IMG/VR virus record: IMGVR_UViG_3300037184_000106
Location: 1 to 52,237 of that record
DNA from: a virus
Direction: 5' to 3' (one strand)
DNA: 52,237 nucleotides
Every line of letters starts with the position of its first letter. Position 1 is the stretch's first letter. Both the position numbers and the translations under genes were made by a program. Of the stretch, positions 976 to 51,153 are shown piece by piece. The notes below the pieces were generated by a model that saw only the letters and a list, made by a program, of their open reading frames with translations, was not told where the DNA came from and searched no databases.

Positions 976-1950
976 ATGGGTCTTATTGCTCAGTCAAATT
1001 TAGTGGCTTTTCTGGAACGAATATTGAAGGAATCCGGTCGTATTCGAACCGGAAATAATTTTCAAGTACATTGTCCTTTCTGTCACTATCCCATAGAACG
1101 GAAACTTGAACTTTGTCTCGACCCTCCTTACTATTGGCACTGCTGGCACTGTGATGCTAAAGGAAGAGGATTTTATACTTTTTTAAAAAAACTTAATGCC
1201 TCTCATGATTTGTATGTTGAATTGGAGAGTATAGTCGGCAAACCAGTCAGCAATTTCATCAAGGTAGGAAATTCGTTTGATCCGTTTAATAGGACAGAAG
1301 AAGTTGTAGAAAAAGTTGAAGAATTACATTTACCAGTTGAATTTGCTAGTCTGATGAATGATGATGGATCTAGACAATATAATCAAGCATACAATTATGC
1401 AAAGAAACGTAAGATTACGCCAGCAGATGTTGTGAAATACAACATCGGATATTGTTCAAGTGGGCTCTATCAGGACCGACTAGTATTTCCCTCCTATAAT
1501 AAAGATAATAAACTGAATTTTTTCTCTGCTCGGAGTTATTATGACGACAGTTTTATGAAGTATCGCAACTGTGATGCTTCCAAGAATATCGTTGGATTTG
1601 AGAATCTCATAGATTTTGATTATCCAATTTATTTATGTGAGGGAGCGCTTGATGCTATTTCATTAAGAAGAAATGCTATACCACTGTTTGGCAAGACGAT
1701 AAGCGATGCTTTAAGAATAGCAATTGCAGGTAGTAACTGTCCAGAAGTTAATATAGTATTGGACGACGATGCTCTAAAAGCAGCATTGAATATTTCTGAA
1801 TTTCTAACTTCAATCGGGAAAACGACAAAACTAATTCGATTACAAGGAAAAGATCCGAATGTATTGGGTTTTGATAAGACTATGGAACAAATTCGAAATA
1901 CGGAAAAGCTTGACTTTATGCAGATAATGAGGTTAAGATTGAAGCTATGA
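976..1950 (+). CDS. gp61: DNA primase (DnaG/T4 gp61 type)
   Basis: The 324-aa product should make RNA primers for lagging-strand synthesis with the replicative helicase. An N-terminal zinc ribbon is visible (C33-x2-C36 and C56-x2-C59). A Toprim-like domain follows, with the EGALDA motif near residues 222-227 and an acidic LDDDA at about 262-266. The length is close to T4 primase. ATG 976 is the first ATG after an in-frame stop at 919-921 and has a weak ribosome-binding site. If the five-T run at 935-939 were four T, an ATG at 918 would join the frame and add about 19 plausible residues. The stop overlaps the next start (ATGA). Confidence 0.85.
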   Translation: MGLIAQSNLVAFLERILKESGRIRTGNNFQVHCPFCHYPIERKLELCLDPPYYWHCWHCDAKGRGFYTFLKKLNASHDLYVELESIVGKPVSNFIKVGNSFDPFNRTEEVVEKVEELHLPVEFASLMNDDGSRQYNQAYNYAKKRKITPADVVKYNIGYCSSGLYQDRLVFPSYNKDNKLNFFSARSYYDDSFMKYRNCDASKNIVGFENLIDFDYPIYLCEGALDAISLRRNAIPLFGKTISDALRIAIAGSNCPEVNIVLDDDALKAALNISEFLTSIGKTTKLIRLQGKDPNVLGFDKTMEQIRNTEKLDFMQIMRLRLKL

Positions 1951-2441
1951 TAACAATATTACAACCAAACGAAGTATATATATTTGGATCGAATTCTACG
2001 GGATTTCATGGCGCGGGTTCGGCAGGATTAGCGTGTAGAGGAGAAGCTAAGAATACATGGAGAACCGATCCTTGGTTTCTAAAAGCCATGAAGTCTCCAG
2101 TCGGTTCACCAGATAGAATTGGTAAATGGGCAGTGTATGGCATCGCCCGTGGTTATCAGGTTGGCCGAGAAGGAGCTTCTTATGCAATACAGACAATTGT
2201 ACGACCGGGGCAGAAATGTAGCACTCCTTTATCTGAAATTAAGGATCAATTAATTGAATTATCAGAGTTCGCTCGGGAACATAAAGAACGTCGATTCATT
2301 ATGACACCGGTTGGAACTGGTTTGGCCGGTTGGAAGAAATCGGAAATGAAAGAAATTTGGGATGATGTAGTTCATTATATGCCTTCGACGGTTATTTATC
2401 CCCTTGATTTGTATTCTAACGTAAACGTATTGGAAACATGA
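1947..2441 (+). CDS. Macro-domain-like phage protein with FGSN..G.HGAG motif
   Basis: This 164-aa protein begins with a short strand, then YIFGSNSTGFHGAGSAGLA, a glycine-rich nucleotide-binding-like loop. Later come ASYAIQTIVRPG and FIMTPVGTGLAGW. The order of these segments resembles macro-domain folds that bind ADP-ribose derivatives, and I recall small phage and bacterial proteins with the same FGSN-HGAG signature. No experimental function is known to me. It is translationally coupled by ATGA overlaps to the primase upstream and the SbcCD-like gene downstream, which ties it to the replication/recombination operon. An ADP-ribose or NAD-related role is inference. Confidence 0.6.
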   Translation: MITILQPNEVYIFGSNSTGFHGAGSAGLACRGEAKNTWRTDPWFLKAMKSPVGSPDRIGKWAVYGIARGYQVGREGASYAIQTIVRPGQKCSTPLSEIKDQLIELSEFAREHKERRFIMTPVGTGLAGWKKSEMKEIWDDVVHYMPSTVIYPLDLYSNVNVLET

Positions 2442-5400
2442 TAGACACATTCGAATTAATCGACATAGATCTTCCCGTAGTTTCTACGGTCATGCATCTT
2501 GCAGATATTCATATCCGCCTAACCGATAGACATGGAGAATGGCGCGAGGTTTTCTCTAAAGTATATGAAGATGCCAAGAAACTACCAGAGAGTAGTATTA
2601 TTACTGTTCTAGGCGATGTTCTCCATGGAAAAGTGGACCTGTCGCCAGAAGCCGTTGAACTTTCCAGTGAATTCTTAAAGAACTTGGCCGATATTCGTCA
2701 TACTATTCTCGTTCCCGGAAATCATGATTGTTTGCTTACGAATAAAACGAGACTGGATAGTTTATCCCCAATCGTAAACAATCTAAATCATAAAAAGTTA
2801 CACTATCTTAAGAAGTCTGGACTATACGGAGTAGGTAATATATTGTTTAATAATATGAGCGTCTTTAATGACGTTACCAAATATCTGGACATAAGGAATA
2901 TATCTAAGAAGATTCAAAATACATTTGATTGTAAAGTTGCATTGTTCCATGGTGGGGTGCATGGATCATTAACCGACCTCGGATATTTGATCGAGAATAA
3001 GTTAGTACCAAGAGACTTCTTTGATGGCCACGACATAGTGATGCTGGGTGATATCCACAAAGCTCAAACATTCTTCATAGAAAAGACTATTCCAATAGAA
3101 GAGGTGGAAGAATATAAGCAGTTTAGTGGATGGGAAGTTACTGATATAGAAGTCGGTGTAAGTGCCAGAGCAACTAAAAAACAACCAATCTTCCGTTATC
3201 CCGGTTCGCTTGTAATGCAAAACCACGGCGAGTCTATAACTGGCCATGGTTACTCATTATGGAATATAAAAAATAGAACGTTCGAACATATTGAGATACC
3301 TAATGATCATGGTCATTTTACTATCAATATTGACGGAGGTAAATTGGTAACTGATATCACAAACATGCCTTCTAAGCCAAGGTTACGAGTTCAATATACG
3401 AACAGTGTGGCTACAGAAGTGAAGAAAATTGTAGCTGATGTTAAGGAAGATCGAACATTAGACGATTTAATCTATCTCAGAATGGATGGTGAGAACATTC
3501 AAGATAATATCACCGTAAAAAAAGTAAATAGTTTAAATTCTATTAGTGATGTAGAATATCAAAACAAACTTATCGAGGAATTTCTGAAAAAGAAATATCC
3601 TATGATGGATAACGATACATTAGAGGAAGTCTATAAGATCAGTAAAACTACAAACGAGAGTGTGGGTAAAGATGATAATAGCAGAAATATCCGCTGGAAA
3701 CCCATTAGGTTTGAGTTCTCGAATATGTTTTCATATGGTGAGAGTAACATAGTTGATTTTACCAAATTAAGTGACGTATATGGTCTATTCGCCGCGAACG
3801 CATCGGGCAAATCTTCGTTGATGGATGCACTCTGCTTTATCATTTTCGATAAGTCCGCTCGGGCATTCAAAGCAGCACACGTGATCAACACTCAAAAATC
3901 ATCGTTCTCGGGAAAATTTACGTTTGAAATTAATAGTGTCAAGTACGTCATTGAGAGAGACGGAATTAAAGATAAGAAGAATAACGTAAAAGTGAATGTA
4001 AAGTTCTATAAACTAGATGGAGATAAACAAGTATCTCTGAACGAGGAGGAACGTCGAAGTACCAATGAAGTCATTCGTAATTATCTTGGTTCATACGACG
4101 ATTTCATTTTAACATCCCTCGCCATTCAAGGAAATCAGGGCTCAATCATCGATGAAGGTCAGACAGAATTAAAGGAATTACTGGCTAAGTTTATTGGATT
4201 GACACTATTTGATCGATTGGTAAAGGAAGCAAGTGATAAAGTCAAGGAAACTGCCGGGGCGATTAAGGTGTTCAATAAGGAAGACAATGCCAAGAAGATT
4301 ATAGATATGACGGCAGAGATTCCGGTACTAGAAGAGAAACTCGTTTGGTTAAACGAAGAAAAAGAGAAGTTATCCAACGGAGTGAAAGAATTGGAACAAT
4401 TTATCGTTCATAATAATTCATTAGTTGTTAAACTCGAAAACGTTCCTGAGGATCTTGGACCGCTTATACAACAAAAGAAAAGTATACAAGAAAAAATTCA
4501 ATTGTATAAAGATAGGCAGCAAATAGCGGAAAAAGAAATATCATCAATTAGTGTTTTGATAGAATCATATGATAAAGAGCTAACATCTTATGACATTCCA
4601 GAACTTTTGAAAAAACACGAAATATACGTCAAGCTAGGTGAACAATATAGTAAACTTTCTAGAGAAATGGATCGTTATCGTATTATAATAGAAGAAAAAC
4701 TCAAAAAATTGGCTCATCTTGATGAACACAAGTATGACCCAAACTGTCCGTATTGTATGAACAATGTTTTTGTAAAGGATGCGATCACCACTCGTGAAGA
4801 GTTAAAAAGTGATAAGACATCCGTATCGACTCTACGTGCCTCTATACAGGACGTAGATGAGAAGATGAAAGAATTGGAGAAAGGATCGTTGGACTACAAA
4901 TATTCACTCTCTATAACACAAAAAAGAAATCCACTCGCCGCCAAGAGATCTAGAATGGAATTGGCAGCTATCAGTTACATAGACGAGGTTTCCAATAATC
5001 AGAATAGATTAAAAATAGTCGATGAACAAATTGAACTCTATGAAAGATCTAAAGAAGTGATAGAAAAAAATCATGCAATTGAACGAGGAAATGACGAAAT
5101 AAGAAAGAAGCTGTTTACTACCAATTATGAGTTGAAGACTGTTACGTCTAAATACATGGAAATCTATGGTAGGAAAATATCATTAGTTGACCGTATTTCC
5201 TTATTGAAATCACAGTCCGAAAAAATAGAGAATCTTGAGCATGAGCATGCCGCATATGAATATTATTTAGACGCGGTTGGTCGAGATGGAATTCCTTATC
5301 ATATCATTTCAGATGTTATTCCTCAAATTGAACAAGAGGTAAACAATATTCTGTATCAAATAGTTGAATTCGGGGTAGCTATCGAGACTGATGGAAAGAA

Positions 5401-5728
5401 CGTAAATATATTTATAAAGTACGAAGATCGTAAATGGCCATTGAAAATGTCATCTGGAATGGAAAAATTTATTTGTGCATTAGCACTTCGGGTCGCGTTA
5501 ATAAATATAAGCAATCTTCCAAGACCAAATTTCCTTGTTATTGACGAAGGCTGGGGAGCACTTGATGCAAATAATATGGCTATGGTTCATGCATTGTTTG
5601 ATTACCTTAAGAGTAGTTTTGATTTCATTATCGTAATAAGCCACTTAGATGCAATGCGTGACATGGTGGATAAACAATTAGAGATTAGGAAGGAAAACGG
5701 ATTCTCTAAGATCGATAATACTGCTTGA
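2438..5728 (+). CDS. gp47-gp46: Fused recombination nuclease/ATPase (gp47-gp46, SbcD-SbcC)
   Basis: One uninterrupted 1096-aa frame encodes both subunits of the Mre11/Rad50-type complex. Residues 1-about 400 are a metallophosphoesterase: D23-x-H25, GD at 59-60 with H63, GNHD at 94-97, HGGVH at 171-175 and GDIH at 204-207. Residues about 418-1096 are the SMC-like ATPase: Walker A with GKSS at 457-460, long coiled coils, a CPYC zinc hook at 770-773, an SSGMEKF signature near 1017 and the FLVIDEGWGALD Walker B and D-loop. In T4 these are two genes acting in recombination, DNA processing and host DNA degradation. The fusion should fix a 1:1 ratio. ATGA overlap with the gene before. Confidence 0.93.
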   Translation: MIDTFELIDIDLPVVSTVMHLADIHIRLTDRHGEWREVFSKVYEDAKKLPESSIITVLGDVLHGKVDLSPEAVELSSEFLKNLADIRHTILVPGNHDCLLTNKTRLDSLSPIVNNLNHKKLHYLKKSGLYGVGNILFNNMSVFNDVTKYLDIRNISKKIQNTFDCKVALFHGGVHGSLTDLGYLIENKLVPRDFFDGHDIVMLGDIHKAQTFFIEKTIPIEEVEEYKQFSGWEVTDIEVGVSARATKKQPIFRYPGSLVMQNHGESITGHGYSLWNIKNRTFEHIEIPNDHGHFTINIDGGKLVTDITNMPSKPRLRVQYTNSVATEVKKIVADVKEDRTLDDLIYLRMDGENIQDNITVKKVNSLNSISDVEYQNKLIEEFLKKKYPMMDNDTLEEVYKISKTTNESVGKDDNSRNIRWKPIRFEFSNMFSYGESNIVDFTKLSDVYGLFAANASGKSSLMDALCFIIFDKSARAFKAAHVINTQKSSFSGKFTFEINSVKYVIERDGIKDKKNNVKVNVKFYKLDGDKQVSLNEEERRSTNEVIRNYLGSYDDFILTSLAIQGNQGSIIDEGQTELKELLAKFIGLTLFDRLVKEASDKVKETAGAIKVFNKEDNAKKIIDMTAEIPVLEEKLVWLNEEKEKLSNGVKELEQFIVHNNSLVVKLENVPEDLGPLIQQKKSIQEKIQLYKDRQQIAEKEISSISVLIESYDKELTSYDIPELLKKHEIYVKLGEQYSKLSREMDRYRIIIEEKLKKLAHLDEHKYDPNCPYCMNNVFVKDAITTREELKSDKTSVSTLRASIQDVDEKMKELEKGSLDYKYSLSITQKRNPLAAKRSRMELAAISYIDEVSNNQNRLKIVDEQIELYERSKEVIEKNHAIERGNDEIRKKLFTTNYELKTVTSKYMEIYGRKISLVDRISLLKSQSEKIENLEHEHAAYEYYLDAVGRDGIPYHIISDVIPQIEQEVNNILYQIVEFGVAIETDGKNVNIFIKYEDRKWPLKMSSGMEKFICALALRVALINISNLPRPNFLVIDEGWGALDANNMAMVHALFDYLKSSFDFIIVISHLDAMRDMVDKQLEIRKENGFSKIDNTA

Positions 5729-22282: not shown

Positions 22283-23446
22283 ATGAGTTCTAATACAAAA
22301 CGTATAGTTTCTATAGTTCTTACAGGTGGTCCCTGTGGTGGTAAGACCACAGCTAAAGCAAAAATAAAAGATTACTTCGAACCTCGTGGTTGGCGTGTTA
22401 TTATAGTTCCTGAGTCTGCTACCCAATTAATATTGTCCGGTATAGTTCCGTTCAAAGAGTCATCTATCGCCTTTCAATCAGCACTTCTCTCCACTCAATT
22501 GACTGCTGAATCTGTTGCCAAAACTTTTGCTCAACATTTAAATGAAAATGTTCTTCTTGTGTTTGATCGTGGTATTGTAGATGGAAGTGCTTTTACCCCG
22601 CTTGTAATTTGGCAATCTTTGATTGCCGAAAAAGGTCTTACACCAATCACTGCTAGAGATACACGATATGATGCCGTATTTCATCTGAATACCGCTGCTA
22701 AAGGCGCAGAAGCGTTTTATACATTGGAAAACAACCGTGCTCGGTGGCAGTCACCGGCTGAAGCAATTGAGAAGGATGATCTAATCTTAGCTGCTTGGTT
22801 GGGTCATCCACATTTACGTGTAATTGAGAATACTGGTGATTTTGACATCAAAATAGGAAATCTTTTACGTGAAATATCCACAATTTTAGGAATCCCCGAA
22901 CCTATTGAAAGAGAGCGCAAATTTCTTGTCTGTCTGCATTCGTTACCGTCCGAAGTCGAAAACTCTGCATATACTATCGTCCAAACATATCTACCTAAAT
23001 CTCCGGATTCTGACCAACAATTACGTTTGCGTAGAAGAGGAAGGAACGGTGAATGGATGTACATACAGACCTGTAAACGACCAATTCCGGGAGATCCAAC
23101 TGCTCGTTATGAGGTTGAAGTATTATTATCTGCTCAGGATTATTGGAAAAAGATCACCGAACCACGTGAACTAAAAGAATTGACTAAGCAGCGGGCATAT
23201 GCACTACATCAAGATGGTGGTCAGACACTGTATCTTGAGATTGATCGTTATATGTCATTTGATCCAAAACCACAATGTAATATTCCTATAGATCCATGGG
23301 CTATCGTTGAGGTAGAAACAGATCGTACTGACAACATTACTTTGCCTAACTGGTGTACTATTTTAGAAGAAGTTACCTTGCGCCCCGAGTGGCTTAACGT
23401 CTCGCTTGCACGAGACTATCTATCCAATCCTTATATTAATCGTTGA
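22283..23446 (+). CDS. AAA-type NTPase fused to a CYTH domain
   Basis: The 387-aa product joins two domains. Residues 1-about 200 form a P-loop kinase/NTPase (GGPCGGKTT at 15-23, LVFDRGIVDGS near 92-102). Residues about 205-387 form a CYTH/triphosphate-tunnel domain starting at E209-R-E211-R-K213, the ExExK signature, with Arg/Lys- and Glu-rich strands (QLRLRRRGRNGEW, RYEVEV, LYLEIDRY). CYTH enzymes act on triphosphates such as thiamine triphosphate, polyphosphate or RNA 5' ends. The same pairing occurs in some cellular proteins. Substrate unknown; RNA-end or nucleotide handling is inference. A TTGACG-17-CATATT promoter would start transcription at the ATG. Confidence 0.8.
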   Translation: MSSNTKRIVSIVLTGGPCGGKTTAKAKIKDYFEPRGWRVIIVPESATQLILSGIVPFKESSIAFQSALLSTQLTAESVAKTFAQHLNENVLLVFDRGIVDGSAFTPLVIWQSLIAEKGLTPITARDTRYDAVFHLNTAAKGAEAFYTLENNRARWQSPAEAIEKDDLILAAWLGHPHLRVIENTGDFDIKIGNLLREISTILGIPEPIERERKFLVCLHSLPSEVENSAYTIVQTYLPKSPDSDQQLRLRRRGRNGEWMYIQTCKRPIPGDPTARYEVEVLLSAQDYWKKITEPRELKELTKQRAYALHQDGGQTLYLEIDRYMSFDPKPQCNIPIDPWAIVEVETDRTDNITLPNWCTILEEVTLRPEWLNVSLARDYLSNPYINR

Positions 23447-24968: not shown

Positions 24969-25835
24969 ATGTCCATACAGGAAATAATTTCACATAGAAG
25001 CAAAAGATTCTCGGAAGTGTTATCTTATACATATACTATTACTAGAAAGAGTGATGGACAGCAGTATCATGGAGTAAGATACAAAAATGTGAAAGATGGA
25101 ATTTCTCCAGCAGAAGATCTTGGAAAAAGATATTTTACATCAGGAGTATTTAAATCAGATTTTAAATTAGATCCCAATGATTTTGAGGTAAAACTAAGAT
25201 GGACATTCGATAATATAGAAGATGATTTATTATGGGAATCTAGGGTAAATAGTCGGATTATACATAGAGAGACATGGGCCAATATAGCGGTTGGAAAAGG
25301 ATGTAGAGACATTGAAAAATTAAAGGTGAGACGTGAAGAAGCATGTGTTAAAAAGTATGGTGTTCCACATAATATGATGGTTAGAGAAATAAGAGATAAG
25401 AGAGACGAAACATTAGTTAGATTATTTGGAACTAAAAATATTTCTTCTTTGGATATTATAAAAGATAAAGTAAAACAAACATGTTTAAGAAAATTTGGAA
25501 CGGAATATTCATTTCAATCACCTTCGGTCAAGTCAAAAATAAAGAAATCTTTAATAGAAAGATATGGAGTTAGTAATCCAGCATTATGTCCTGCTATATC
25601 AAAAAAGAAAATGGATTCTAATATTAAAAAGTATGGAATGCATTATTTTAAAACAAAGGAATTTCTTGAATTAAATAAAATTAAAAGGGACGATATGTAT
25701 ATTAAATTAGCTAAAATGGATATAATATCTTTTACTCAATATTTATCGACGTTGTCTCAACATAAATCGATTCAAAATCAAAAGAAAACTCAACGAGAGA
25801 TTGGTGTAAAATTATTGGAGACTATAAATGCCTAA
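24969..25835 (+). CDS. GIY-YIG-like homing endonuclease with KYGV repeats
   Basis: The 288-aa product has an N-terminal degenerate GIY-YIG-type segment (YTYTITRKSDGQQYHGVRY, then GKRYFTSGVFK) as found in phage homing nucleases. At least five DNA-binding-type repeats follow, of the form (K/R)(Y/F)G(V/T)xxxxx, for example CVKKYGVPHNMM, CLRKFGTEYSF and LIERYGVSNPAL. It is more AT-rich and lysine-rich than its neighbours, consistent with mobility. It overlaps the following neck-gene start by eight bases. TATTTATA is three bases before its ATG. Some GIY-YIG catalytic residues look substituted, so activity is uncertain. Confidence 0.65.
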   Translation: MSIQEIISHRSKRFSEVLSYTYTITRKSDGQQYHGVRYKNVKDGISPAEDLGKRYFTSGVFKSDFKLDPNDFEVKLRWTFDNIEDDLLWESRVNSRIIHRETWANIAVGKGCRDIEKLKVRREEACVKKYGVPHNMMVREIRDKRDETLVRLFGTKNISSLDIIKDKVKQTCLRKFGTEYSFQSPSVKSKIKKSLIERYGVSNPALCPAISKKKMDSNIKKYGMHYFKTKEFLELNKIKRDDMYIKLAKMDIISFTQYLSTLSQHKSIQNQKKTQREIGVKLLETINA

Positions 25836-35661: not shown

Positions 35662-38646
35662 ATGGCACTGACAAAAAATGGCAATTACACACCCGACGAG
35701 CGAATTGTTTCGCCCGGTGTATTCACGAGAGAAAACGACCAATCCTTTTTGGCACAGGGAGTAGCTCAAATCGGCGGTGTTGTTGTGGCTCCTTTTCCAA
35801 AAGGTCCGGGATTTTATCCTACCGTTATCACAAACGCAAATGACCTGAGTAGCATCTTTGGTGATCCAGACGGAGTTCTTTATGGTCCATATACTGCACA
35901 ACAATATCTCGCTCAACAGGGTCAGGTAACAATCTGTCGTGTAGGTGGGCTTGCTGGGTATACGCAAAAAGGTGCATTAGTCATTTCGGCCTTCCCCGGC
36001 CAATATGATCGATTTGTTGAATCAGGTTCATTCTCTGGTTCAACGCTTGGTACGGTCATTACTACAGATGGACTCGGTAATTTTAGTATCCAAGGTACAT
36101 TGAGCGCTAAATTCACAACGGGTGAATATGCTGGTGATACATTGGTGGTAGGACAAATTAGTGGATCGGTCATAACTCCGGTGTATTCTGCAAGCGTATT
36201 ACAATCTGGTGTTTTCAACGGTATTCTTTATAATCAAACTTTACCGATTGATCCAAACTTCCCAACAACGGTTGTTTCTTCTAGTTTTGTTATTGTAAAT
36301 GTAAGCCCGTGCAAACAAGAAGCTCAATTCAATGGAAACATTGTTGGAGCATATGGTGTTCTTAATGCTGCAAGTTGGACACCCGGCACGGCTTCATCTG
36401 AAGATGATTGTGGTGGAGTAACCGGTTCTGGTACTCGTGATGAAGTGGTTCTAGCTGTATTGGCTAACACCGCTCTTGATCGTGGTCAGGAACTATATGG
36501 ATTCAGTGGATCTATTCTAACTCCAACAAACGAAGCATTGAGTTCTGTTTATCAGCTCGCATTAAATGAAACCTATTTCGACGTAGCACTTGGTCAGTAT
36601 ATTTCAAGTTCTTATGGAACATATACTTTCTCAGTCGATCCTTCCAATCCATCGTATATTACGGCGGTCTTTGGAACTAATCCAGAAGCTGGTTATGTTG
36701 CCGTTGCTACTGGTCAAAAAGTTGAAGCAGCATATACCTATGTTCACTTCGATAACTTGGCGCAGAAAATTGTAAACGAAATGCTTGCATCAGGAAGCTG
36801 GAAAATACAAGTTTCTGTTCGTGATGATGCATTGACATTTGCTGATGGTATTACACCTGATGTTGGAACGTCTGCTTATGATTTACGTGAAGCAGTAACT
36901 CCATTTATTCGTTCACAACAGATTTCTCCATATAGTGGATCTGGTCCACAAACTGCTGCTGAATATGATCTGTTTGCTGTTCATACTCTTTCTGATGGTA
37001 CGAATATGAATACGACATACAAGATTGAAATCTCCAATGTCAAATCTCCGGGATCAATTCCAAATTCAGACTTCGGTGCGTTTGACTTAACCGTTAGAAA
37101 CTTCTATGATACGGATCAACGTACCAACATTCTTGAAAGCTATCCTAACTTGTCGCTTGATCCAAACAGCGCCAATTTCGTTGCTCGGAAAATCGGTGAC
37201 ACGTACAGTTATATCGATTTCAATGGTAAAATCACAGAATATGGAACCTATGCCAACGTAAGTAAACTAATTCGTATTGAGATGGCATCTTCGCCATATC
37301 CAGATAATTCAATTCCATTTGGTTTCGGGCCATATTCAACACCAGTAGGTGGAGATTATGCTCGCCTTGGAAAGTTACCTAGCATCCAATACACTAGCGC
37401 GTCGATCTGGTCGGAAAGTCCCGGACGTTATGCTTCCGGAATCGCATTTAATCCGGCTCCAGCGAATTCTGATGATGAATTAGCTGCACTCTATCCAAAC
37501 GGAACCGAAGTTGGTCCTGAACGTGATAATTTTGAGTATTTCAATCCAATTCCAATTGGTGCCGCCACCAAAGGTGCTGGATTCAGTCTCCAAAACATTG
37601 GAGTTACTCCAGATTACGTTCCTACGAACGAATCAGTTAATCGTGATATGCGTCGTTTCGTCCTCGGTTTCCAAGCCGGTTTTGATGGCCAGAGTCCTTC
37701 TATTCCGATCTTGGTTGGAAACGACATTATTCCAACCAATCAACAGGGTCTAGACTGTTCGACTAATAAGAGTTTCGGAACTTATGCTTACAAACAAGCC
37801 TTGGCCGCTCTCGGAAATGCTGATGAGTGGGATTTCAACTTAATCGTTATTCCCGGAATCAACTATCAATATCATCCATATGTCGCAACTCTTGCAGTCA
37901 ATGTTTGCGAAACCCGTGGTGACGCTTTCTACATCATGGACATCGCTCCAAATCAAGTAGCTGGTGACGCTTCTATTAATAACGTAATCGAACTCGCTTC
38001 CGATTTCGATACTAATTATGCCGCGACCTATTATCCTTGGATAAAGATTTTGGACTCGAATACCAATAAGATCATTCCTGTTCCACCGTCTGTTCCAATG
38101 ATGTCGGTTTATGCAGCGAACGATGCTGTAGCCGCTGAATGGTTTGCTCCAGCTGGTCTAAATCGTGGTGGTCTCCCAGCTGCAAAGCAAGTTATAGACC
38201 GTCTCACTCACCGTGATCGTGATAGTCTTTATGAAAATAAAGTCAATCCAATCGCTGCCTTCCCCGGACAAGGGATCGTTGCATGGGGAAACAAGACACT
38301 TCAACAGAAGCCATCAGCACTTGACCGAATCAACGTTCGCCGTCTATTGATTGCTCTTAAGAAGTTCATTGCTTCTTCATCTCGTTACTTGGTATTCGAA
38401 CAGTCTGTTTCGACTACATGGTTGAAATTCACAAATATGGCAAATCCATACCTTGAAGGAGTTCAACAACGTAGTGGTCTTTATGCCTTTAAGGTAGTTA
38501 TGGATTCATCTAATAACACACCAGATAAGATCGATCAGAATATCATGTACGGTCAAATTTGGTTGCAGCCCACGAAGACAGCTGAATTTATAATATTAGA
38601 CTTCAATATAACCCCTACGGGTGCCCAGTTTGGGACCGGAGTATAA
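35662..38646 (+). CDS. gp18: Tail sheath protein (gp18-like)
   Basis: The 994-aa contractile sheath subunit begins with the typical N-terminus ERIVSPGVFTRENDQSFLAQ, followed by IGGVVVAPFPKGPGFYPTVI. It ends with the conserved core: LRGIYAFKVV-type strand (here QRSGLYAFKVVMDSSNNTP), IMYGQIWLQPTKTAEFIILD. It is about 330 residues longer than T4 gp18 (659 aa); the extra sequence lies in the Ser/Gly/Thr-rich middle, probably surface-exposed insert domains. It has a strong Shine-Dalgarno (TAGGAGA), TATTTATA 42 bases upstream and a strong terminator downstream. Confidence 0.93.
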   Translation: MALTKNGNYTPDERIVSPGVFTRENDQSFLAQGVAQIGGVVVAPFPKGPGFYPTVITNANDLSSIFGDPDGVLYGPYTAQQYLAQQGQVTICRVGGLAGYTQKGALVISAFPGQYDRFVESGSFSGSTLGTVITTDGLGNFSIQGTLSAKFTTGEYAGDTLVVGQISGSVITPVYSASVLQSGVFNGILYNQTLPIDPNFPTTVVSSSFVIVNVSPCKQEAQFNGNIVGAYGVLNAASWTPGTASSEDDCGGVTGSGTRDEVVLAVLANTALDRGQELYGFSGSILTPTNEALSSVYQLALNETYFDVALGQYISSSYGTYTFSVDPSNPSYITAVFGTNPEAGYVAVATGQKVEAAYTYVHFDNLAQKIVNEMLASGSWKIQVSVRDDALTFADGITPDVGTSAYDLREAVTPFIRSQQISPYSGSGPQTAAEYDLFAVHTLSDGTNMNTTYKIEISNVKSPGSIPNSDFGAFDLTVRNFYDTDQRTNILESYPNLSLDPNSANFVARKIGDTYSYIDFNGKITEYGTYANVSKLIRIEMASSPYPDNSIPFGFGPYSTPVGGDYARLGKLPSIQYTSASIWSESPGRYASGIAFNPAPANSDDELAALYPNGTEVGPERDNFEYFNPIPIGAATKGAGFSLQNIGVTPDYVPTNESVNRDMRRFVLGFQAGFDGQSPSIPILVGNDIIPTNQQGLDCSTNKSFGTYAYKQALAALGNADEWDFNLIVIPGINYQYHPYVATLAVNVCETRGDAFYIMDIAPNQVAGDASINNVIELASDFDTNYAATYYPWIKILDSNTNKIIPVPPSVPMMSVYAANDAVAAEWFAPAGLNRGGLPAAKQVIDRLTHRDRDSLYENKVNPIAAFPGQGIVAWGNKTLQQKPSALDRINVRRLLIALKKFIASSSRYLVFEQSVSTTWLKFTNMANPYLEGVQQRSGLYAFKVVMDSSNNTPDKIDQNIMYGQIWLQPTKTAEFIILDFNITPTGAQFGTGV

Positions 38647-38664
38647 TCTAAACTCTCCTCTGAA

Positions 38665-38695
38665 AGTCCGTCCCTTCTGGGACGGATTTTTTTTT
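38665..38695 (+). terminator. Rho-independent terminator after tail sheath gene
   Basis: About ten base pairs (AGTCCGTCCC / GGGACGGATT with one G-T pair), TTCT loop and a run of nine T. Confidence 0.9.
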
Positions 38696-38758
38696 GCTCT
38701 TATTTATGTGTTTGATATTTCTACTTACTATTTATCTAGTAGGATTTTAATAATACAC

Positions 38759-39745
38759 ATGAAAAACACAGAATCATTTCGATATAAACATTATTTAAGA
38801 GTCATGAAACGTTTAACTATGGGAGGAGTTATTCCAGCATTCAATTTCGAAAATTACACCGGAACTAAAAATGTTGAATATAAATTTAAATGTATTTCTT
38901 GTGATTTTGAATTTTCTGGTACTCTCGATAATGGCCACACACCATTATGTCCGAAATGTCATCCGAATAGATTGACTATAAATCTTGGCCATCCAGACAC
39001 CATAGTCAAAAAATGTGAAGAATGTAATAAATATTTTTTAGTAATATGGAAAAACCGCAATCAGAGATTTTGTTCAGTATCATGTAAAAGAACCTTTATC
39101 TCAAAGAGTGTCAGAGAAACGGTTAATTGTTTAAATTGTGGAAAACCATTTGTACGACGTAAAAAAGCTGATAGTGGAAGAGAAAACCCAAGACAATATT
39201 GTTCAAATCATTGTTCAGTTATTTCATTAGAGAACCGAAATAAGCGCAGGGAGTGGGGATTATCAGGAAATAACCATTGGAGAAAATCAGAGTGTCAAGC
39301 CAAAGTATCAGAAACAAAATTGAAAAGATACGGAAATAAAAAATATAATAACACTGATAGACAACTAAAAACTATAAAAGATAGATATGGAGTTTATTGT
39401 TCTTTCGATTTACCACAATCAAAATCAGGTGGCCACAGAGTCTCAAAATTTCAAAAAATTACCTATGAGAGAATTTTAAAAGACAATCCAGATGCACTCT
39501 TAGAAGAATATCTTAGCGACGTAGAAAGATCGGTTGATATCTATATTCCTTCTAAAAAACACATCGTTGAGTGCAACGGAGATTATTGGCATTGCAATCC
39601 AAAAATTTACGGTCCAGATTACTATAACAAATTAGTCCACTTGACGGCGCAAGAAATATGGGACAAGGACGAAGAAAAATATAGACAATTACGATCTAAT
39701 GGATATTCTGTTGACATTGTTTGGGAAAACTCCCGAAACCATTAA
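38759..39745 (+). CDS. Zinc-finger, Vsr-like homing endonuclease
   Basis: The 328-aa product starts at ATG 38759; upstream in-frame codons run through the sheath terminator and are rejected. It has several CxxC pairs (CISC, CPKC, CEEC, CLNC, FCSVSC, YCSNHC), a DNA-binding repeat region (KLKRYGNKKYNN, IKDRYGVYCSF) and a C-terminal Vsr/EDxHD-type nuclease core (SVDIYIPSKKHIVECNGDYW, then H, then DEEKYRQLRSNGYSVDIVWE). The architecture matches free-standing homing endonucleases of T4-like phages. It sits directly after the sheath gene, a typical position next to a conserved target. Confidence 0.78.
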   Translation: MKNTESFRYKHYLRVMKRLTMGGVIPAFNFENYTGTKNVEYKFKCISCDFEFSGTLDNGHTPLCPKCHPNRLTINLGHPDTIVKKCEECNKYFLVIWKNRNQRFCSVSCKRTFISKSVRETVNCLNCGKPFVRRKKADSGRENPRQYCSNHCSVISLENRNKRREWGLSGNNHWRKSECQAKVSETKLKRYGNKKYNNTDRQLKTIKDRYGVYCSFDLPQSKSGGHRVSKFQKITYERILKDNPDALLEEYLSDVERSVDIYIPSKKHIVECNGDYWHCNPKIYGPDYYNKLVHLTAQEIWDKDEEKYRQLRSNGYSVDIVWENSRNH

Positions 39746-49207: not shown

Positions 49208-49476
49208 TGGAAATATACTTTCTCCATTCGAGGCGCAAACATACGAAACTTCTCTCCGGGATATGCTTCGTCAACACCTTTAATACCGGGGTACTTAAAA
49301 TAAAGCTCTACTTTGTACGTTCTATTCTCCGTAACGTATAACCTATACAACTCAATTGCTCTACGAACCGCTTCGGATCTATCCATACACCCCCATTCTT
49401 CAATTACTCTTAAAGCATATTCTGTACTCTGTGGTACAGTTGCTGTAATTTCTGTTGTATATAATTCTTCACTCAT
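49204..49476 (-). CDS. Ribbon-helix-helix-like protein
   Basis: In the 90-aa product, residues 5-45 fit a ribbon-helix-helix DNA-binding domain: a strand (TTEITATVPQSTEYALRVIE) followed by DRSEAVRRAIELYRLYV, where the SEAVRRAI helix is typical. Such proteins are dimeric transcription repressors, sometimes antitoxins; no toxin partner is evident. It could regulate the minus-strand accessory operon (inference). ATGA overlap with the upstream homing endonuclease gene. Confidence 0.6.
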   Translation of the reverse strand: MSEELYTTEITATVPQSTEYALRVIEEWGCMDRSEAVRRAIELYRLYVTENRTYKVELYFKYPGIKGVDEAYPGEKFRMFAPRMEKVYFQ

Positions 49477-51083
49477 GGTATCTGCACTGTAGAGGGTTTT
49501 TGTGATTTGTCAACCCAAATCCACTTGGAATGCCCGCAATCCCAAATTCGGTCGAATCCATTGACCTTCATGTTTTCCCATTCGGAGAGGGCGGGGTCGA
49601 AAAACGTCAATTTCTTTTCTAGCTTGGCTTTCTGCCAGTTGACATTGTTTTCTAGAACATCATATGATTCAATAATATATTGATAATCAGGAGCTAGGTT
49701 TTCAACAAATGTGAATCCTAGTTTCAAAAATGATTCACCAGAGAAATATCTTCTGTCAGTATAAGCAGCTACGATTTCTGGTTTGAAGTGTTTAATGAAA
49801 TATGAAAACAGTTTCGACATTCCACCTACAACGGTGACACCTAATAAAGAACAATATCTACTGATTTCCCAATGTTCCTTCTCTGTAAATTTAGAAGACG
49901 AAAATGTCATCGCCGCAATCAACCGATCTTCATCGAATAGTCCCAACCGAATCATGGCAGTATCATTGCCATGAAGACTATTTTGCTCTAGAAACTCAGA
50001 TTTTTGGATTGGATCTATTTCTTTTATAGAGCATTTTCTGGCATAAATAATTCGGTTCTCTTTCAGCAGGAGTGTTTTTAATATAGACTTGACTATATTC
50101 TTACAATGATTCCAGTCATTTTCAAATATATGAACGAGCCGGATACCTTTCATAGCACACAACTTAGTCTTATTTAAGTGATAATTCTTGTTTCTTGTAC
50201 CTGACACTTCGGAATGATAATAAATACCGTCCGCTTCAATTGCTATGTTTTTTCCGGGAATGTATATGTCTAATTCTAACGGACTAAGCACCGCTCGATT
50301 ATTGATTACAATTGGTTCACTTGGAAGTAACTGTTTAACATAGTCAACTATTTCTGTTTGAAATATTGACATCGATGCATCACATACCGAACATCGAAGA
50401 GCGTAACGAGTCAGATCAAAATCTTGTTCTTTATTACATCGATTACATTTAAACGTATATTTTTTATTGAACTGGACGGTTATACCGTCATATTCGTCTA
50501 TCGAGAAACACGGTGTAAAATTCTTGAATCGTTCAGATTCAATGAATTTTTTGAACATGGCTTTTTTATGACTTTGTTTGAAAGTGCTGCTGTTGATCTG
50601 TTCTTTTCTGTCTCCTTGCATGGAAGCATGTGGAACACCGTATTTCTTCAAACATGTTTCTTCATATTTCTTACGACATTCATCTGTCTTCTTGTAATTG
50701 TCTGCCCCATATCGCTCCAAACATGTTTGTTTCATTTGATCGATATTATTATATCTCTCATCTCCATATCTTTCAAGTTTGGTGGCTTTAGTTTTATCAA
50801 CGAATTCATCGGTCTGGCTAAACCATGCCTTTCCGTGTCGTTCTATCATCGTTAGAGTGAGTTTTTCCTTTGTTTGAGGATTCACTGCCATTGGATGGCC
50901 ACCATATTTAGAATCAAATGCTTTGGCTACACCAATGCGATTTTTCTCTTTCACAGCTGGATCGTTTACTGCACATTTTTTACAGCAATAAGTCTTTTCT
51001 TTTCGCCGTTCACAAGTAAATGGTTGTTTACACGTGGGACATGTCTTGTGTAGCGTATTATTTGGATCTTTAGGTCTAGCCAT
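49473..51083 (-). CDS. Large Vsr-like homing endonuclease with KYG repeats (Hef-like)
   Basis: The 536-aa product starts at ATG 51083 (MARPKDPNNTLHKTCPTC). Order of parts: N-terminal zinc finger (CPTC, CCKKC); a series of DNA-binding repeats (AFDSKYGGHPM, MIERHGKAWF, KLERYGDERYN, CLERYGADNYK, CLKKYGVPHAS); a second zinc finger (CNRC, CSVC); a Vsr-type nuclease core (LELDIYIPGKNIAIEADGIY, H, then MKGIRLVHIFENDW); and a long C-terminal domain of unknown role. This matches T4-type Hef homing nucleases. A TTGACA-16-TATTAT promoter lies upstream. Confidence 0.82.
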   Translation of the reverse strand: MARPKDPNNTLHKTCPTCKQPFTCERRKEKTYCCKKCAVNDPAVKEKNRIGVAKAFDSKYGGHPMAVNPQTKEKLTLTMIERHGKAWFSQTDEFVDKTKATKLERYGDERYNNIDQMKQTCLERYGADNYKKTDECRKKYEETCLKKYGVPHASMQGDRKEQINSSTFKQSHKKAMFKKFIESERFKNFTPCFSIDEYDGITVQFNKKYTFKCNRCNKEQDFDLTRYALRCSVCDASMSIFQTEIVDYVKQLLPSEPIVINNRAVLSPLELDIYIPGKNIAIEADGIYYHSEVSGTRNKNYHLNKTKLCAMKGIRLVHIFENDWNHCKNIVKSILKTLLLKENRIIYARKCSIKEIDPIQKSEFLEQNSLHGNDTAMIRLGLFDEDRLIAAMTFSSSKFTEKEHWEISRYCSLLGVTVVGGMSKLFSYFIKHFKPEIVAAYTDRRYFSGESFLKLGFTFVENLAPDYQYIIESYDVLENNVNWQKAKLEKKLTFFDPALSEWENMKVNGFDRIWDCGHSKWIWVDKSQKPSTVQIP

Positions 51084-51103
51084 AGTTTTGGTTCTTATGC
51101 AGA

Positions 51104-51131
51104 ATAATAGACGAAAATACATAGATGTCAA
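51104..51131 (-). promoter_or_regulatory. Sigma70-like promoter for the large minus-strand operon
   Basis: On the minus strand TTGACA (51131-51126), a 16-base spacer and TATTAT (51109-51104), 20 bases before ATG 51083. It is the best sigma70-like match seen and is placed to drive the homing endonuclease, ribbon-helix-helix, RNA ligase and paralogue-array genes. Confidence 0.6.
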
Positions 51132-51153
51132 GAACTTTTTTTCCAACACTGTT

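Follow-up and report, generated by a model that had tools for sequence, protein, structure and literature searches.

The Mre11-Rad50 fusion gene

The stretch of viral DNA analysed here (52,237 nucleotides, hereafter the window) carries on its plus strand a frame that begins with an ATG at 2438, terminates with a stop at 5726-5728, and encodes 1096 amino acids without an internal stop in the ORF listing of the window. A search of the window's own record with the encoded protein returned a single uninterrupted match.

2438..5728, plus strand: Mre11-Rad50 fusion gene, 1096 aa (ORF listing and own-record search)

Pfam placed a Metallophos domain (PF00149) at residues 17-184 (E 1e-9) and SMC_N/Rad50-type matches over about residues 428-1089 (E 2e-17); PHROGs assigned both an SbcD-like and an SbcC-like family to the chain, with the SMC/SbcC-type ATPase following residue ~425; and the PDB sequences matched by phmmer were mainly Rad50, SbcC, and Mre11 chains. 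The order within the single chain, an Mre11-type nuclease and then a Rad50-type ATPase, is that of the Mimivirus R555 type of fusion. The earlier note had proposed Mre11/Rad50 (gp47/gp46) in one frame without a stop, a reading borne out by the ORF listing, Pfam, PHROGs, and the motifs described below. As read from its sequence, the gene is a gp47/gp46 (Mre11/Rad50, SbcD/SbcC) fusion with both sets of catalytic residues, and it belongs to a known type of protein, whose architecture has been published since 2011. For the structural comparisons, an AlphaFold2 model of the single chain was built with 60 sequences (mean pLDDT 83); the relatives in this 60-sequence alignment are 37-57% identical to the window protein.

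The nuclease half

The Mre11 half comprises the following features.

2486..3067, plus strand: Mre11-type nuclease (metallophosphoesterase) domain, residues 17-210 (Pfam PF00149)
2504..2512, plus strand: nuclease motif I, DIH, Asp23-Ile-His25 (D23 and H25 invariant in 60)
2612..2626, plus strand: nuclease motif II, GDVLH, residues 59-63 (D60 and H63 invariant in 60)
2717..2728, plus strand: nuclease motif III, GNHD, residues 94-97 (N95 and H96 invariant in 60)
2948..2956, plus strand: nuclease motif IV, HGG, His171-Gly-Gly, residues 171-173 (H171 invariant in 60)
3047..3058, plus strand: nuclease motif V, GDIH, residues 204-207 (D205 and H207 invariant in 60)
3068..3184, plus strand: long variable loop after motif V (alignment; low-confidence model)
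3185..3487, plus strand: Mre11 capping domain, residues 250-350 (inside the model range 16-349 that matches SbcD)
3551..3661, plus strand: helix-loop-helix, residues 372-408, candidate Rad50-binding domain of Mre11 (model helices 372-386 and 392-408)

Residues 16-349 of the model fit the nuclease and capping domain of S. aureus SbcD (7dog_B; Z 25.3, rmsd 3.4, 278 residues), and the position and order of the helix-loop-helix match the description of T. maritima Mre11 (PMC3175470). Among the seven expected metal ligands (D and H of motif I, D of motif II, N of motif III, H of motif IV, and two H of motif V), six are present; the exception lies in motif V, which reads GDIH rather than the usual GHxH and places Asp205 at the position of Pyrococcus Mre11 His206. 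Since Asp205 is found in 60/60 aligned sequences, it is a family feature and not decay. The same Asp for His206 has been reported for Mimivirus R555, as has a second peculiarity of its nuclease, the His in the GDxxH motif, which the window protein likewise has (PMC3175470).

The exchange of a metal ligand, complete in our alignment and shared with R555, could be taken to mean that catalysis by the Mre11 half is altered or weak and that this half works chiefly as a DNA clamp or structural element. We consider this unlikely: all other Mre11 metal ligands are invariant, Asp can bind Mn, a split homologue in a Vibrio phage also has GDxH, and the strict conservation of Asp205 points to use. To judge from the sequence, the invariant Asp could alter metal use or activity.

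The loop after motif V is ~28 residues longer in the window protein than in most relatives in the alignment, with a Q210-P250 span of 41 residues versus 7-16 in 58/60 sequences, and residues 217-246 within it have a pLDDT below 50 in the AlphaFold2 model. Long inserts after motif V also occur in the fusion gene of locus L033 and in the interrupted gene of locus L003 (LR756508.1, a 484 kb uncultured phage); they are loosely alike and end in GW or GEW. At this same loop, the L003 fusion gene is interrupted by a 305-aa gene (3671-4588) that encodes a TnsA-like endonuclease domain and splits the fusion gene into frames of 243 and 861 aa, the second of which still spans the capping domain and Rad50. 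No Rfam match above threshold to a group I intron or other RNA was obtained in L003.

The ATPase half

The remainder of the chain has the layout of a Rad50/SbcC protein.

3692..4237, plus strand: Rad50 N-terminal ATPase half, residues 419-600 (VIA-align to SbcC/Rad50 heads, Z 31.5)
3791..3814, plus strand: Walker A, AANASGKS, residues 452-459 (N454, G457, K458, and S459 invariant in 60)
4238..4732, plus strand: coiled coil, outgoing arm, residues 601-765 (long model helices)
4745..4756, plus strand: zinc hook CPYC, residues 770-773 (C770 and C773 invariant in 60)
4784..5227, plus strand: coiled coil, returning arm, residues 783-930 (long model helices)
5228..5725, plus strand: Rad50 C-terminal ATPase half, residues 931-1096 (phmmer to Rad50 chains)
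Plus strand, motifs of the C-terminal half: signature SSGME, residues 1005-1009; Walker B FLVIDE, residues 1032-1037; His1069 (pattern search)

The Rad50/SbcC set is present, namely Walker A, Q-loop, signature, Walker B, D-loop, His switch, and an antiparallel coiled coil with a CxxC hook. S1006, G1007, E1009, D1036, E1037, D1043, and H1069 are invariant in the 60 aligned sequences, and residues 420-1096 of the model fit the Rad50 head of E. coli SbcCD (7yzo; Z 31.5, rmsd 3.4, 348 residues). The signature reads SSGME instead of LSGGE, and since Met1008 is conserved in 51/60 sequences, this departure too is a family feature and not decay. The earlier description of complete motifs thus holds insofar as the usual motifs of both halves were located by pattern, but not to the letter, with GDIH standing for GHxH and SSGME for LSGGE.

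The joint between the two halves

The two halves are connected by a short modelled linker.

3662..3691, plus strand: linker from the Mre11 part to the Rad50 part, residues 409-418 (between the helix end at 408 and the Rad50 strand at 419)

The linker falls where the earlier note had put the joint, near base 3660-3700. It follows a retained capping and helix-loop-helix region, and its 10 residues fit the length of about 9-12 that characterizes R555-type fusions. Across the joint, the distance from N406 to F425 is exactly 20 residues in 60/60 aligned sequences. In comparison with the 11 closest relatives, the linker codons are 59% identical at the amino-acid level, and of the residues that are identical, 58% show synonymous changes. 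The constant length of the joint and the mostly synonymous change within it indicate purifying selection on the joint.

That the fusion forces a 1:1 stoichiometry, as had been proposed, follows from the single chain unless an internal start in the fused frame yields extra free Rad50. We searched for such starts and found candidates at 3602, 3605, and 3725 (ATG) and at 3662 (GTG); however, none of the candidates near the joint is preceded by a clear Shine-Dalgarno-like sequence, and residues 390 and 409 show no conservation as starts. Met430, the sole internal Met that is conserved, is situated beyond the opening residues of the Rad50 fold, and translation from it would give a truncated product. 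An additional Rad50 product is therefore very unlikely, and we regard none of the internal starts as credible.

A fixed geometry, also attributed to the fusion, does not follow. The normal Mre11/Rad50 complex is 2:2, and the helix-loop-helix normally clamps Mre11 to Rad50. The unfused complex is thus already 2:2, and it is mobile as well, moving between closed, partly open, and open states (PMC8824468), while the joint of the window protein is a 10-residue linker after that helix-loop-helix. Our model, with a whole-chain pTM of 0.47, does not establish how the two halves sit against each other. In known fusions, the linkers measure 9-12 residues, and the distance that they bridge is already present in the T. 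maritima complex (PMC3175470), which makes the fusion compatible with the normal contacts.

Distribution of the fusion in phages

A search for the same architecture in other phages found both halves in one frame in 152/155 fetched loci, a set that includes some duplicates as well as the window itself and whose ranking rested on similarity to the whole fused query, which leaves split relatives under-sampled. The three loci outside the 152 are the window's own (left out), L025 (a short partial match), and L155 (whose contig ends inside the gene). L003, with its interrupted gene, is a special case. After removal of identical genes, 117 distinct fused genes remained. Altogether, hundreds of aquatic phage sequences have a relative, and nearly all of those examined are fused. 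The rarity implied by the earlier note is thus contradicted: the fusion is widespread in aquatic phages and has been in print since 2011 (PMC3175470).

These relatives also bear on whether the fusion is an assembly or sequencing artefact, in which a missed stop or a frameshift merged adjacent genes. Since the two genes lie side by side or near each other in T4, E. coli, and several phages, a single indel could merge them. However, because 152/155 loci, from many metagenomes and with an isolated Microcystis phage, Mel-JY01, alongside, carry both domains in one frame, and because the joint is identical in length in 60 sequences with synonymous-dominated change across it, we regard chance or artefact as ruled out, with a negligible probability left to it.

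A collection of named phages gave 26 matching records. Four match over both halves and represent three distinct phages (H3 and H4 look like duplicates), whereas the other 22 match in the Rad50 half only; four of the latter were opened, and all four have separate genes. A fusion has also been published for Bacillus phage 0305phi8-36, which has no NC_009760 entry in this collection. On the bacterial side, two scans of genome contigs turned up a relative in two short MAG contigs only. The related Flavobacterium phage immuto, whose capsid is 57% identical, matched neither the SbcC nor the SbcD phage families and hence gives no contrast between fused and split genes.

The fusion is the sole full-length Rad50-family match in 10 large relatives and in two named phages, although the viral records surveyed, except that of Mel-JY01, may be fragments; in one 735 kb phage there is another Rad50-like stretch at a different site. 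The genome of Mel-JY01, which is recorded as complete, has a single full-length match to the Rad50 family and a single Metallophos match, and both fall within the fusion. The window being a 52 kb fragment, its phage may carry a separate gp46/gp47 pair elsewhere.

Genomic neighbourhood

Two genes upstream of the fusion are of interest.

976..1950, plus strand: phage DNA primase gene, upstream neighbour (phrog_47, E 1.7e-38)
1947..2441, plus strand: small gene in the interval between primase and fusion (phrog_2072, unknown, E 5e-20; phrog_335, phosphatase, E 8.8e-6)

A primase homologue lies directly upstream of the fusion in 103/105 loci with enough upstream sequence; in L003, one of the two exceptions, a primase-looking frame ends where the first half begins. 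The small gene, phosphatase- or macrodomain-like by weak match, is a neighbour outside the fusion; it recurs in L019/L115 (65% identity) and is inserted between primase and fusion in the window and in L019. The surroundings are those of a T4-type contractile-tailed phage, with terminase, portal, head protease, gp23-like capsid, sheath, and tube genes, and the window capsid protein is 57% identical to that of Microcystis phage Mel-JY01.

Relation to known Mre11/Rad50 proteins

Mre11/Rad50 fusions have been described in Mimivirus (R555), a Bacillus phage, plasmids, bacteria, and eukaryotes, and some R555-like metagenome sequences were suggested to be phage-derived (PMC3175470). The full-length fused genes in phage contigs bear out that suggestion of 2011, which came from short reads. 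The R555 type and the window protein share (i) the order of Mre11 followed by Rad50, (ii) the succession of nuclease, capping domain, helix-loop-helix, and short linker, and (iii) both the GDxxH motif and the Asp for His206. They differ in that R555 belongs to a giant virus and has 1351 aa, whereas the window protein belongs to a phage and has 1096 aa, a difference that probably lies mostly in the length of the coiled coil. In a Foldseek comparison with the predicted viral structures of BFVD, in which giant-virus relatives stood in for R555 itself, proteins of Tupanvirus, Harvfovirus, and Catovirus matched over the full length (E 1e-59 to 1e-75). Giant-virus proteins ranked best in this comparison, with Tenacibaculum and Listeria phage proteins lower; the window protein is about 20-23% identical to its best giant-virus structural matches.

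Closer in sequence is WWT39521.1 of Mel-JY01, which is fused over its full length, 36% identical, and encoded just downstream of a primase-like gene, but which is annotated only as 'AAA domain containing protein' and is without the long loop after motif V. The gp47/gp46 proteins of T4 and cyanophages are homologous to the parts of the window fusion and very likely do the same job, and the phage of the window has a T4-type structural module, as T4 does. In contrast to the single chain of the window, T4 uses two genes (339 and 560 aa) with two small genes between them, and the Rad50 half is longer in the window than T4 gp46. E. coli SbcD/SbcC has the same domain set and the folds of both halves, but is encoded by two overlapping genes, with GHIH as motif V and an SGGE signature.

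Trees built for the Mre11 part and for the Rad50 heads set 30 fused proteins apart from six split pairs (support 98/95 and 99/96), although with only six split rows on long branches, the trees do not establish a single origin of the fusion. Using other sampling, Yoshida, Claverie and Ogata favoured several fusions in 2011 (PMC3175470).

Proposed function

The window protein is very probably a one-chain phage Mre11/Rad50 (T4 gp47/gp46, SbcD/SbcC) nuclease complex of the Mimivirus R555 kind. In phages, end resection by the Mre11/Rad50 complex (T4 gp47/gp46) serves recombination-dependent replication and repair (PMC3175470), and it is because of this role of the Mre11/Rad50 families that we assign a likely function to the fusion. 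Two fused chains would most likely form the usual M2R2-type particle, in which (i) the Mre11 parts dimerise, (ii) the Rad50 heads engage on ATP, and (iii) the coiled coil and zinc hook tether DNA ends. Through the short linker, each helix-loop-helix would most likely hold the coiled-coil base of its own chain, that is, in cis. The nuclease of the fused dimer would most likely resect or trim DNA ends, making 3' ends for recombination-dependent replication and repair, and in this it would presumably work alongside the primase whose gene lies upstream.

The Foldseek matches included Lamassu and Jet SMC chains, and an SMC-nuclease of this sort (Lamassu- or Wadjet-like) would act in defence or counter-defence and not in replication and repair. 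These matches, however, reflect general similarity of SMC heads: the top structural alignments of the Rad50 half are to Rad50/SbcC, the nuclease is of the Mre11/SbcD type, and the fusion gene adjoins a phage primase in nearly all relatives. We therefore consider a defence role highly improbable and retain the end-processing role in replication and repair. A more specific scenario, in which a single fused Asp-ligand Mre11-Rad50 replaced the gp46/gp47 pair in a large clade of aquatic T4-type phages and, co-expressed with the primase, couples altered metal use or cleavage to priming, is speculative and rather doubtful.

The fusion leaves the picture of the Mre11/Rad50 mechanism unchanged. It is mildly interesting for its commonness in phages, its strict primase linkage, and its invariant Asp ligand, and a one-chain Mre11-Rad50 with a fairly short coiled coil would be handy for structural and single-molecule work.

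Other genes in the window

Three genes with matches to homing/HNH endonuclease families (24969-25835, 38621-39745, and 49473-51149) are interspersed with the structural genes, beside those for neck, sheath, and tube. At 2-913, a frame that runs off the window start has RCC1-type propeller repeats and is perhaps part of a tail fibre or adhesin. A 387-aa protein (22283-23446) combines an AAA_28/thymidylate-kinase-like domain with a CYTH domain, and in the 994-aa tail sheath protein (35662-38646), the best match to a sheath is confined to roughly the C-terminal 300 residues.
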